Shown here: positions 1,229-5,774 of the stretch, one piece after another
Layout: the number at the start of each line of letters is the position of its first letter
Position numbering within the stretch: the stretch's first letter is position 1
IMG/VR virus record: IMGVR_UViG_3300031964_000067
Span: 1 to 31,120 of that record
Reading direction: 5' to 3' (one strand)
Origin: a virus
Length of the DNA: 31,120 nt
The notes under the pieces: model-generated
Told to the model about the DNA's origin: nothing
The model's input: the letters and a program-made list of their open reading frames with translations, nothing else
The model's database searches: none
Made by a program: the position numbers and the translations under genes

Positions 1229-1363
1229 ATGCACGATGACCTTTCGCTAGACGAACTCCAATCCCTGCTTGAGCAGTCCATCGCCAAGCATCACGAGCCA
1301 CGCCAGCGATATGCTGATCGCATGGCAACCAACGATTCAACCAACAAAGAGGAAGACGCATGA
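1229..1363 (+). CDS. Small acidic protein, first gene of the rightward operon
   Basis: The product is 44 aa, beginning MHDDLSLDELQSLLEQSIAK and ending NKEEDA. The N-terminal half predicts an amphipathic helix; the tail is polar. GGGG at 1219-1222 is spaced six bases from ATG 1229, which favours this start over an in-frame ATG at 1223. The stop overlaps the next start in an ATGA (1360-1363). It is the first gene after the predicted promoter. No family is recognised. Confidence 0.6.
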   Translation: MHDDLSLDELQSLLEQSIAKHHEPRQRYADRMATNDSTNKEEDA

Positions 1364-1680
1364 AAATGTTCCGTCAAGGCGACGTTATGATCCGGCAGGT
1401 TGCTGAGCTGCCCAACGGTTCCACTGCCGTCAAAAATGAATTCCGAATCGTCCTAGCTCACGGCGAAGTGACCGGCCACGCCCATGCCGTGCGTGTGGAG
1501 GACGCTGTGGAGTTCACGCGGGCCGATGCGGCGGGTGCTGTTCGCCGCTTCCTGGAAGTTGCCAGCGCTGCGAGCGTAGTGCACGAGGAACACGCAACAA
1601 TCCCTCTTCCCGCTGGTTTCTACGAGATCGTTATCCAAAGAGAATACCACCCCGAATCCATTCGGTCGGTACAGGACTGA
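1360..1680 (+). CDS. His-rich small protein paired with the tetrapeptide-repeat gene
   Basis: The product is 106 aa. Clear motifs are FRQGDVMIRQV near the N-terminus, LAHGEVTGHAHAV (about 32-44), VHEEHATIPLPAGFYEIV (about 74-91) and QREYHPESIR (about 93-101). His 34, 40, 42, 75, 78 and 97 could form a metal or ligand site in a small beta-rich fold; this is inferred. From memory, proteins with this same QGDV...LAHGEVTGHAHA...HEEH...QREY pattern are found in bacteria next to DUF6745 proteins with long xxQL/xxQV repeats, as here. It is coupled upstream by ATGA and ends two bases before the repeat-protein gene. Function unknown. Confidence 0.75.
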   Translation: MKMFRQGDVMIRQVAELPNGSTAVKNEFRIVLAHGEVTGHAHAVRVEDAVEFTRADAAGAVRRFLEVASAASVVHEEHATIPLPAGFYEIVIQREYHPESIRSVQD

Positions 1681-1682
1681 TC

Positions 1683-3113
1683 ATGGCTAAGCGCATCGAA
1701 AAACTCAACAAAGAACAAGTAAGCCGCTTGCCGGAGTTCCGTGATAAGTGGATGGCTCGTGGTCTGGCTACAGGGCCATGTGATCGTGAGGCCATGGAAC
1801 ACGCCGCTGACGAAGCCTATCGCTGCGCCGGTCTTCCCATTCCAAAACTGAAGATTTGGCTTGGTTCTCCCTTTGCCGGAGCTATCGGTGCGCATTTTCT
1901 CGCTCATTCTCCTAATATTTCAGGGGATCAGGTCAGGAATCAGGTCTTGAATCAGGTCGGGGATCAGGTCGGGGATCAGGTCAGGAATCAGGTCAGTTAT
2001 CAGGTCTGGGATCAGGTCTGGGATCAGGTCTGGGTTCAGGTAGGGGCTCAGGTCTGGGCTCAGGTCTGGGCTCAGGTCTTGAATCAGGTCGGGGATCAGG
2101 TCAGGAATCAGGTCGGGGATCAGGTCAGGAATCAGGTCTGGGATCAGGTCAGGAATCAGGTCGGGGCTCAGGTCTGGGCTCAGGTAGGGGCTCAGGTCTG
2201 GGCTCAGGTCTGGGCTCAGGTCTTGAATCAGGTCTGGGCTCAGGTCTTGAATCAGGTCGGGGATCAGGTCAGGAATCAGGTCGGGGATCAGGTCTGGGCT
2301 CAGGTCGGGGATCAGGTCTGGGCTCAGGTCTGGGCTCAGGTCTTGAATCAGGTCGGGGCTCAGGTCGGGGCTCAGGTCGGGGATCAGGTCGGGGCTCAGG
2401 TCGGGGATCAGGTCTGGGAAGCAGGGTATGGTCAACAAGACTCGGCGTGGCTGGCTTTTTACGAATTTTTTGGCCAAGTTTTTGGAATGGAGATTTGCAA
2501 CAAGTTGGCTGGCTTGGATTTACTCTCAGAATGCGGATGGTGGTGGCCTTTTGCTGGCGGGGTGATTCTTACGGAGCGACCTGTCTCCTTGCATCGCGAC
2601 GATCAAGGCCGGCTGCATAACGAAAGCGAAGCAGCCATGAAATATCCAGACGGTTGGAGCATCCATGCGATTCACGGGGTTCGTGTGCCTGCTGACGTTA
2701 TTGAAGATCGATCATCGATCACGGTCACACGGATTGCCAACGAATCGAATGCCGAAATTCGCCGTGTAATGATCGAGCGTTACGGCATGAATCGTTACAT
2801 GCTCGATTCCGGATCGGAGATTATTCATAGGGATGCTACGGGAATTCTGTACCGCAAAGAAGTGCCTAATGACGAACCTATCGTGATGATTCGCGTCCTT
2901 AATTCGACACCGGAGCCTGACGGTGTGATGACGCGTGAGGAGGCAATAGAAGTGTTTGGGGACGCGGCGAAAGCAGCTATGAACTCTCCAAAAGGATCAA
3001 GGTTCAAGGAGTACAGCATTCGCGTAAGTCCTGAACTCACCAAGGCCCATGCAGCGGTAGCCTGGACATTTGGTCTGACCGAAGAGACCTATCATCCGGC
3101 GATTGAGTCATGA
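1683..3113 (+). CDS. DUF6745-like protein with 41 tetrapeptide repeats
   Basis: The product is 476 aa in three parts. Residues 1-80 are a helical head with [20 protein letters not shown]. Residues 81-244 are 41 uninterrupted four-residue units of form xxQV, where the first position is G, W, R, L or S and the second D, A, N, Y or V. Residues 245-476 are a compact domain rich in Trp and Gly ([61 protein letters not shown]) ending [15 protein letters not shown]. From memory the two flanking domains match bacterial DUF6745 proteins, which also carry such repeats; that is recall, not a search. The repeats probably stack as a solenoid or ladder with aligned Gln and Val. It forms a likely functional pair with the gene just upstream and overlaps the next gene by ATGA. 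Biochemical role unknown. Confidence 0.8.
1923..2414 (+). repeat. 12-bp minisatellite, 41 in-frame copies
   Basis: Forty-one tandem 12-base units run without interruption inside the 1683-3113 gene. The typical unit is GGGGATCAGGTC. Bases 7-11 (CAGGT) never change, base 12 is C in all but two units (A in units 10 and 22), and variation is confined mostly to bases 1, 2, 4 and 5. Thirteen units read GATCAG and so contain a GATC site. Longer blocks recur, such as the unit series LN-GD-RN-GD at units 14-17 and 28-31, which suggests growth by slippage or unequal recombination. Copy number is likely to vary between isolates. Confidence 0.95.
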
Positions 3114-3469
3114 ACACTTGGGTAAAACAAATCCCTCACTCTCCATGGCATCGCACGCCGATGGAAGCTATCGCGATGCTGATCGAGGATGAATGTGATC
3201 GTCTCGTAAATGAGGAAACTTACGACGAGAAGGGAATGGACTTGGATGTAATGGATTGCTGCAAGCGACTTTCCGTAACGCACTTGGACCATGCCGACCG
3301 ATGGGATACCGCTCTAGTCGATGCCGTGTACTCGCTGAAGGAGGGAGAGATTGTTGAACTGCTGGCCAATGGCGATGATGCCGAACTTGGCAAGAGGCTG
3401 CGCGAACTGGCTATCAAGAGTTTCGCTAAGGACATTTTCGATGATGCTAAGACGGAATGCCTAACATGA
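3110..3469 (+). CDS. Unknown acidic protein
   Basis: The product is 119 aa and mostly helical, beginning [20 protein letters not shown] and with an acidic middle (IEDECDRLVNEETYDEKGMD). It overlaps the repeat-protein stop in an ATGA and is followed in the same way by the HNH gene. I see no catalytic motif and no recognised family. Its place directly after the repeat protein leaves open that it belongs to the same cassette. Confidence 0.7.
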   Translation: MNTWVKQIPHSPWHRTPMEAIAMLIEDECDRLVNEETYDEKGMDLDVMDCCKRLSVTHLDHADRWDTALVDAVYSLKEGEIVELLANGDDAELGKRLRELAIKSFAKDIFDDAKTECLT

Positions 3470-3951
3470 GTATTGAGGCGGTAGAAATTGATGTGGGATG
3501 GGCTACTAATTTTTTATTGAACAACTACGCAGATGTTACTGAAACAGGTTGTTGGCTTTGGCTTGGAAAATGGGATAGGGCAAAGTATGGAAGAGTATAT
3601 AGAGGGAAGAAATCTGTTTCAGCGCACAGATTTTTCTTCACAATACACAAGGGTAGGATACCTAAAGGAATGTGCGTTTGTCACAGATGCGATACTCCGG
3701 CATGCGTGAACCCCTCACATCTTTTCTTGGGCACTCAAAAGGAAAATGTGATTGATAGATATAAAAAAGGTAGATTCTCTGGTTACACTCATCCACGGGC
3801 AAAATTAACTTTTGACCAAATAAATTTGATACGTTCTTTGAACCTGACAAACGCTAAGATTGCAGAGTTGTATGGAGTTTCTAGAGCTTATGTAAGCAAG
3901 ATAAAATGCTCAAAAACGTGGGAGGATTTGAGATGCGAAAAACATCTTTAA
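3466..3951 (+). CDS. HNH endonuclease with C-terminal helix-turn-helix
   Basis: The product is 161 aa from ATG 3466, which overlaps the upstream stop; an in-frame ATG at 3457 would add three residues. GCWLWLGKWDRAKYGRVYRG (about 28-47) and SAHRFFF (52-58) lead into CVCHRCDTPACVNPSHLFLG (70-89), a typical HNH_3-type motif: His73, Asn82 and His85 are the likely catalytic or metal residues and the four Cys (70, 72, 75, 80) are candidate zinc ligands. A C-terminal segment (about 115-150, LTFDQINLIRSL...AKIAELYGVSRAYVSKIK) is a helix-turn-helix for DNA recognition. The gene is markedly AT-rich compared with its neighbours, as expected of a free-standing homing endonuclease acquired by transfer. 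Confidence 0.9.
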   Translation: MSIEAVEIDVGWATNFLLNNYADVTETGCWLWLGKWDRAKYGRVYRGKKSVSAHRFFFTIHKGRIPKGMCVCHRCDTPACVNPSHLFLGTQKENVIDRYKKGRFSGYTHPRAKLTFDQINLIRSLNLTNAKIAELYGVSRAYVSKIKCSKTWEDLRCEKHL

Positions 3952-4332: not shown

Positions 4333-4785
4333 ATGAGCAACTTAACATCAGTTCCAGCGGATAACTGGAAGCGCAAGGAAGTTTGGAAGCGTGAGGGATC
4401 AAATTTCGCAGTCGAAGTATCGCGCCATGAGTGTCATGTTTTTCATGATGATGGATGCTTCGATAGTGAAGGTCCGCATCGTTGGTGCGTGTATGTGTAC
4501 GTTTACCCCAAGCATCCATCATTTTCAGAGTTCAAGCCAGAAGGTGATTTGTACGATCAGCCGAGCTTTGGGATGCATTGGGGAAATTCATATTTCCGAG
4601 TGTGGCGCAGCGACGAAGGCGAGATCAAGAGCTTTCAGGTAGGAAGCGATTACAACCATTTCGACGACTGGAGATACACACGCATGGCTACGAAGAAAGA
4701 GGCTTACAGCGTATTCGCGGATGCTGGCGAGATTTTCGACATGATGGCTTTGCGTGAGAAATCCGTTGCGGAGAAATCGGCATGA
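4333..4785 (+). CDS. Unknown protein upstream of recT
   Basis: The product is 150 aa and rich in aromatic residues: HRWCVYVYVYPKHPSF (about 49-64), FGMHWGNSYFRVWR (about 78-91) and YNHFDDWRYTR. The middle predicts antiparallel beta strands and the C-terminus is helical (KKEAYSVFADAGEIFDMMAL). It overlaps recT by ATGA at 4782-4785, so the two are translated together and probably act in the same process, such as DNA recombination. I do not recognise the family. Confidence 0.75.
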   Translation: MSNLTSVPADNWKRKEVWKREGSNFAVEVSRHECHVFHDDGCFDSEGPHRWCVYVYVYPKHPSFSEFKPEGDLYDQPSFGMHWGNSYFRVWRSDEGEIKSFQVGSDYNHFDDWRYTRMATKKEAYSVFADAGEIFDMMALREKSVAEKSA

Positions 4786-5774
4786 GCAACGATACGAACT
4801 TGGCGAAGGCTCTTCCGTACCAGGAGGCCATCAAGAATTCGCGGGATCGCTTCCAGAAGGTTGCTGCACAATCGGTGAACTACGACAAGGAATCGATCTT
4901 CGCCATGCAGGCATTGATGAAGAATGACTTCTCGATGCAGACGGCGAACAAGAATCCACAGAGCGTCATCCTTGCGATGATAAACGTAGCCTCTACAGGG
5001 CTCACGCTTAATCCTGCCAATGGATATGCCTACCTTGTGCCACGCGATGGCGCCATTGTGCTGGATATCAGCTACAAGGGCCTGATCAAGATAGCCACGG
5101 ACTCAGGTGCCATACTTTGGTCACGCGCTGAGGTTGTCTATGGTGATGATCAGTTCAGCTACAACGGCCCGGCAGCCATGCCCGAACATCGGGCTGATCC
5201 CTTCAAGAAGGATCGCGGCGAGATTGTAGGCGCGTACTGCATCGCCAAGACCAAAGATGGCGACATACTCACCGAGACGATGCCCATTGCCGAGCTTGAA
5301 AAGATTCGCGGCAAATCGAGCGCATTCGTCAAGGGATCGGCTGGTCGCAAGGGGCCGTGGGAAGAATGGTTTGAGCAGATGAGCAAGAAGGCTGTCATCA
5401 AACGGGCTAGCAAGACGTGGCCGTATACCGATGATCGTCTTGCTCAGGCCATTGAGGTAGCCAACGTATCGGAAGGCGGATACGACTTTGAAGGCCGCCC
5501 ACCGCAGCTTACGCTTGAAGATGGCCGTAAAGAAAAGCACGACGAAGCCGTAGATCAGTATCAGGGTGTCATTGAAGTGATCAAGCGCAATATCGCCTTG
5601 TGGGATGATGACAATGACAATGTAGATGCCCTGTACACCGTGGCCGAAACCTGGAATGAGCTTAAGGCCGGTCCACAATGTGACCTGTGGCTAGCACCCA
5701 GCAAGGGCGGAATTTTCACCACGCACGAACGCGAAGTTATCAAAACACGCTTGCCGAAGGTTGCGACGGAGTGA
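4782..5774 (+). CDS. recT: RecT-family single-strand annealing recombinase
   Basis: The product is 330 aa. Recognisable RecT features are NPQSVILAMINVASTGLTLN (58-77), GYAYLVPRDG (81-90), VLDISYKGLIKIATDSG (93-109) and MSKKAVIKRASKTWP (200-214). RecT proteins bind single-stranded DNA as oligomers and anneal complementary strands in phage recombination. They usually have a partner 5'-3' exonuclease (RecE or YqaJ type). No such exonuclease is encoded next to this gene or elsewhere in the window. The C-terminal 100 residues are less conserved. The start is fixed by the ATGA overlap with the upstream gene. Confidence 0.92.
   Translation: MSNDTNLAKALPYQEAIKNSRDRFQKVAAQSVNYDKESIFAMQALMKNDFSMQTANKNPQSVILAMINVASTGLTLNPANGYAYLVPRDGAIVLDISYKGLIKIATDSGAILWSRAEVVYGDDQFSYNGPAAMPEHRADPFKKDRGEIVGAYCIAKTKDGDILTETMPIAELEKIRGKSSAFVKGSAGRKGPWEEWFEQMSKKAVIKRASKTWPYTDDRLAQAIEVANVSEGGYDFEGRPPQLTLEDGRKEKHDEAVDQYQGVIEVIKRNIALWDDDNDNVDALYTVAETWNELKAGPQCDLWLAPSKGGIFTTHEREVIKTRLPKVATE

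Follow-up and report, generated by a model that had tools for sequence, protein, structure and literature searches.

The window, that is, the whole 31,120-nt stretch of viral DNA analysed here, contains a plus-strand open reading frame (1683..3113) for a 476-aa protein that begins 2 bp past the stop codon of a small upstream gene (see the table). An HNH endonuclease gene and a gene for a RecT annealing protein follow downstream, which bears out the placement of this gene among the early genes by the sequence-only reading in the sense of an early/recombination region; the remainder of the window consists of phage late genes (terminase, large portal, lysis and internal-virion-like proteins). A 185-aa antisense open reading frame (1920-2477, minus strand) with DLSPDLIP repeats is a by-product of the 12-bp array described below and is unlikely to be a gene.

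Features of the window and of the two further flank families. L numbers denote the compared loci.
Feature	Position	Strand	Remarks
Small partner protein	1360..1680	+	106 aa; motif HGEVTGHAH...QREYxPxxIRxVxD; phrog_27831, E=1.4e-17
N-terminal helical domain of the DUF6745 protein (residues 1-80)	1683..1922	+	aligns in phage relatives; AF2 pLDDT about 80-97
41-unit xxQV tetrapeptide array, a 12-bp coding minisatellite (residues 81-244)	1923..2414	+	TRF; AF2 low-confidence long helix
C-terminal DUF6745 domain (residues 245-476) and stop codon	2415..3113	+	PF20530; AF2 pLDDT mostly 83-98
HNH endonuclease	3457-3951		downstream of DUF6745 gene
RecT annealing protein	4782-5774		downstream of DUF6745 gene
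Second flank family	L345:815-1633, L389:6171-7154, L396:68-1045, L366:138-962		minus-strand loci numbered from the reverse complement
Third flank type	L285:3203-4012, L287:5335-6141, L256, L292		

Residues 245-416 of the 476-aa protein match the Pfam family PF20530 (DUF6745) with E=3.9e-63 and 212.9 bits against a curated cut-off of 27, and the assignment to DUF6745 made in the sequence-only reading is right. The N-terminal signature AxxAYRxAGLxxPxxxxWxxSPxxG is common to this protein and to the phage and bacterial members of the family. A literature search on DUF6745 and on the repeat peptides found no paper and no experiment on any DUF6745 protein. The linker slot between the two domains is filled by an unbroken series of 41 xxQV units, for which the sequence-only reading had given both the count and the coordinates correctly. 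TRF reported this array at 1924-2419 (period 12, 41.3 copies, 84% matches, 0% indels, score 586), far above chance and as the sole tandem array in the window. The repeats had been called perfect, which holds for Q (CAG in 41/41 units) and V (GTC in 39, GTA in 2) and fails for the first two positions, x1 (G16, W13, R6, L5, S1) and x2 (A15, D13, N11, Y1, V1). In DNA terms this is a minisatellite within coding sequence, built of 12-bp repeats.

In the AlphaFold model of the whole protein, built with 52 aligned relatives (pTM 0.62), the two ends have pLDDT values mostly above 80 (80-98) and residues 82-245 form a single long helix of low confidence (pLDDT about 45-65). Comparison of this model and that of the small protein with the PDB by Foldseek and VIA gave no match at E<=0.001, the top VIA Z scores being 3.1 and 3.0. 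A PDB sequence search with the DUF6745 protein returned no true relative, only repeat-driven matches such as Plasmodium P230, and a BFVD structure search with the DUF6745 model found nothing except other DUF6745 proteins.

The small upstream gene encodes a protein that matched no Pfam family and is predicted with confidence to be all-beta (pLDDT 93.4); its model had no convincing fold match in the PDB (Foldseek, VIA). This gene is a near-constant neighbour of DUF6745, being adjacent to it in 35 of the 37 viral loci of the domain-selected set that have sufficient flank (directly upstream in 25, directly downstream in 10) and lying directly upstream in all 80 of the 80 bacterial loci; in the remaining two viral loci (L061 and L115) it is 3.5-5.5 kb away. 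The association with the 1360-1680 gene, for which a check of co-occurrence had been suggested, is thus well founded, and the pair looks obligate. In L038 the small protein is divergent and longer, and in L043 (5770-6855) a single frame joins the beginning of the small protein to DUF6745, apparently via a deletion relative to L044.

Scans with the whole 476-aa protein and then with the DUF6745 domain alone yielded together about 120 viral loci, the domain-only set having been selected without reference to repeats. In this latter set, the linker slot is occupied by xxQV, xxQL, xxSV, xxNL, xxAV or xxAT arrays or by sequence without repeats. Array-bearing and array-less relatives have both domains in common; the type and length of the array vary widely among phages while the domains persist. 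Annotated phage neighbours of DUF6745 include RecE, recombination exonucleases, Erf-like annealing proteins, methyltransferases, HNH endonucleases and repressors.

Bacterial members of the family resemble the phage ones in both terminal domains and in having the small gene upstream, but those on actinobacterial chromosomes are without the tetrapeptide array and often lie beside a radical-SAM STM4011-4015 cluster. The 21 sampled bacterial neighbourhoods together contained 10 genes for radical-SAM proteins of the STM4011 family, 7 for STM4012, 3 for STM4013 and 3 for STM4014. The pair occurs beside this uncharacterised cluster in L206, L207 and the bacterial loci L128-L199, from Streptomyces, Streptosporangiales relatives and Deinococcus. 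DUF6745 and its partner form an ordinary chromosomal pair in Actinobacteria and, therefore, the pair as such is not a phage counter-defence; the array-less actinobacterial pairs beside that cluster show that counter-defence as such is not its core function.

The same kind of array was found in more than 100 phage proteins, both related and unrelated. DNA-pattern scans, which demanded W/R/G- and D/A-type codons, revealed the same arrays in at least two further unannotated protein families; given these fixed codons, the scans establish that such architectures exist and do not give their frequency. Members of the second family have the ends KYEYNPLT...HPF and LVPSFDGKxWRLHGG, often an MCK start, and [WRG][DA]SV arrays in between, whereas the third flank type has QV arrays between the ends QATKxP...KDxKK and LGVMVVFxxGKxKVFGKKGKFLGEYDE. 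Neither matched any Pfam family convincingly, and PHROGs gave only weak repeat-driven matches. Some phages carry tandem mini-ORFs of QV tetrapeptides (55-100 aa) with conserved ends and overlapping start and stop codons (L042:5941-9720, L039:7127-8046, L043:6916-8141). Up to 16 of them stand in series in L042, with no DUF6745 within the 14 kb covered. In the mini-ORF phages L032, L036, L038, L039 and L043 the DUF6745 gene, where present, is without an array.

Changes within the arrays are almost wholly confined to amino-acid-changing sites. Between-unit differences in 105 arrays gave a median pN of 0.143 vs a pS of 0.003, with pN exceeding pS in 100 of the 105 and pS exactly zero in 48. In most arrays variation falls on base 1 of NGG codons, giving W, R or G, and on base 2 of GNY codons, giving D, A or sometimes G. 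Core codons do not change inside one array but differ between arrays, and synonymous cores (CAGGTC, CAAGTC, CAGGTT, AGCGTC, TCCGTG, AACCTC) bear the same x1/x2 alphabet; the amino-acid choice therefore recurs on different synonymous backgrounds. A universal DNA motif, suggested by the presence of CAGGTC in phages of 32-70% GC, was dropped, as xxSV, xxQL, xxNL and xxAV arrays have other invariant bases. Since NGG and GNC are compatible with A-to-N changes, adenine mutagenesis of the DGR type was also weighed, and it was rejected: the adenines of CAG, AGC and AAC never vary (rare codon changes aside) and x1 mostly takes three, not four, bases per array.

Units are gained and lost in frame by 12-bp slippage. 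Loci L005 and L006 are identical across 13.2 kb save for one 12-bp insertion in the array, CTCAGGTCAGGG, the ends of which fall inside a unit and yield a new RA unit out of GA and RD. Other close pairs point to fast turnover. Among arrays that come mostly from metagenome assemblies, several of those compared being cut by contig ends, four pairs of loci have arrays no closer to each other than to shuffled ones (z -0.2 to 0.6) between flanks that are 99.3% identical over 5.0 kb (L329/L345), 96.7% (L052/L054), 95.8% (L269/L283) and 100% over 637 bp (L335/L396). The order of units in 56 arrays was near random with no clear lag correlation, whereas simulated repeated duplication of small units gives one; assembly from short reads is biased towards arrays that lack long internal repeats and can blend strains. 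Arrays from isolates and phage genomes are likewise mostly near random, with the exception of L210, in which GD and WA alternate. Composition stays roughly the same from array to array (W 29%, R 31%, G 36%), but W:R:G ratios differ between arrays beyond multinomial sampling variation (p=0.0018). Cultured phages, namely Tweety (49 units) and its relatives DeadP (39), Taj (31) and KristaRAM (17), differ in array length between identical ends and support array turnover independently of metagenome assembly.

The closest known counterpart is gp54 (phrog_3416) of mycobacteriophage Tweety, encoded in the early region, whose two unique ends enclose an array of 48 tetrapeptides (12-bp units) with variation at first/second positions and invariant third positions (PMC2884959); its repeat number shifts between identical flanks. 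Mutants of gp54 that escape defence differ in repeat number and overcome the Phrann gp29/gp30 defence (PMC9262239). The DUF6745 phage proteins have the same architecture of conserved ends, a variable-number tetrapeptide array and variation at amino-acid-changing sites only, but the core of the gp54 units is AA plus [GWQ][SY] and not QV or SV. No small HGEVTGHAH partner was seen in the annotated gp54 neighbourhood that was examined, phrog_3416 was absent from the PHROGs matches of the 476-aa protein, and homology between the flanks was rejected (hhalign probability 0.1%, E 0.74). The flanks being unrelated, this is a likeness of architecture and not membership of one family. In Bordetella phage BMP-1 the non-essential gene bbp36 also contains, in VR2, a coding tandem repeat whose copy number varies, with a 24-bp element instead of the 12-bp one found here; it is set beside our arrays by its description in PMC2884959. 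In PADLOC-DB, the window gave a weak, repeat-driven match in the repeat region (P0001/PDC-S29, E=0.0013), with no stretch passing alone, and only one other match, the homing endonuclease at 3457-3951; none of its defence or anti-defence models gave a confident match that would account for the DUF6745 protein and its partner. The feature is real and unusual: phage elements of this kind are known, though little studied, and the present family variant of them had not been described. The sequence-only reading had seen in it an undescribed system with a possible role in counter-defence. The former is true of DUF6745 and the small partner, but hypervariable tetrapeptide arrays of phages have a precedent in gp54 (PMC2884959); the latter has the architectural precedent of gp54 in its favour (PMC9262239), but the pair itself is chromosomal in Actinobacteria.

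We tentatively favour, as a possibility ahead of the others, a two-gene phage early host-interaction module in which the array is an adaptor tunable in length and sequence. The core job would be done by DUF6745 and the small beta-rich protein, and the array would join the N- and C-terminal DUF6745 domains as that adaptor. Its length and its pattern of W/R/G and D/A may set the spacing or affinity of both ends toward a partner, possibly a fast-evolving host or prophage factor as proposed for Tweety gp54, while rapid turnover would supply variants inside the phage population. Tweety gp54 offers the strongest support for this adaptor; the shared linker slot, the near-constant pairing, the slippage, turnover and diversifying pattern of the arrays, and the neighbouring early genes of DNA metabolism in phages also speak for it. 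Against it stand the limitation of the gp54 likeness to architecture, the array-less actinobacterial pairs, the PADLOC-DB outcome and the metagenomic origin of most arrays. Its main rival, which we consider rather unlikely, is a disordered or loosely helical multivalent scaffold driven by composition, gathering DUF6745 and the small protein with clients; W, R and G with D/A/Q would be stickers and spacers, and the order of units would be immaterial. Such a scaffold is consistent with the near-random order at every lag, the roughly constant composition, the low pLDDT of the array and the stand-alone mini-ORFs, which contain little besides repeats. It does not predict W:R:G ratios that vary beyond sampling or arrays of the AV and AT types that are without W, and residues 3 and 4 are kept within an array more strictly than composition needs. 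It is unlikely that we are dealing mostly with neutral slippage of a dispensable linker, the apparent reshuffling being inflated by short-read metagenome assembly. Many contigs do end within arrays, array-less relatives are known and L210 is a plain alternation, but neutral slippage predicts neither the excess of pN over pS nor one alphabet on different codon cores, and isolate phages also change their arrays between identical flanks. No likelier, in our opinion, is that a diversification process, either dedicated or under strong selection, rewrites the arrays in place of ordinary slippage, the string serving as a recognition or identity code taken up by several unrelated families and by the mini-ORFs. 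Each phage lineage would then have a near-random succession of some six kinds of unit (W/R/G by D/A or D/G), the synonymous sites being frozen and the order scrambled anew between flanks that remain 96-100% identical.

The rigid rod or stacked solenoid that had been proposed from the sequence, with Q and V in alignment and the variable positions forming a binding face, is now less likely and appears improbable. The strict four-residue period across 164 residues would suit it, and arrays of the xxNL type, for example RANLRDNLGANL, look superficially like pentapeptide repeats minus one residue. Pentapeptide-repeat proteins (Qnr/MfpA type) share with our arrays short-period coding repeats in which small polar residues precede aliphatic ones, as in the ANL of xxNL arrays, but they have the period-five pattern A(D/N)LXX (Rfr) and a known quadrilateral beta-helix, whereas every unit here has four residues and AlphaFold predicts no beta-solenoid, just the low-confidence helix. 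A solenoid period or coil register was sought in the unit counts (mod 2, 3 and 4) and by lag autocorrelation and was not found: the counts have no mod 2 or 3 preference and at most a mild mod 4 skew, and the variable residues W/R/G and D/A show no periodicity. Small Ala (AAxx in Tweety), AT and AV cores occupy such slots too. Least probable of all is that the repeat works as nucleic acid, i.e. as a recombination hotspot, a G-rich structure or a protein-binding array with the peptide as a by-product. The near invariance of synonymous sites within arrays and the GGG every 12 nt in most array types would fit, but which bases are invariant changes from phage to phage (CAG/CAA, GTC/GTT/GTG/GTA, AGC/TCN, AAC), and this makes a DNA-level role unlikely; xxQV or xxSV and the choice of W/R/G and D/A persist despite these differences, and AT and AV arrays are without the GGG period.

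If confirmed, tetrapeptide coding minisatellites would be a widespread, fast-evolving device of phage early genes beyond the mycobacteriophages, with several flank families following one codon rule, and the idea derived from Tweety, that repeat number is a tuning knob against host or prophage defences, would become testable in many hosts. The combination of fixed synonymous sites, saturated amino-acid variation and scrambled order poses a puzzle for models of tandem-repeat evolution. For the uncharacterised Pfam family DUF6745 there would also be a constant partner, the small gene, and a connection with the unexplained radical-SAM cluster of bacteria. The module is also present in the M. abscessus prophage prophiGD102-1 (gp37/gp38). 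In Microcystis phage LMM01, an array-less DUF6745 protein (gp174) and the small partner (gp175) are encoded at L220:3528-5059 (minus strand), next to genes for DNA polymerase, clamp loader, uracil-DNA glycosylase and dUTPase.
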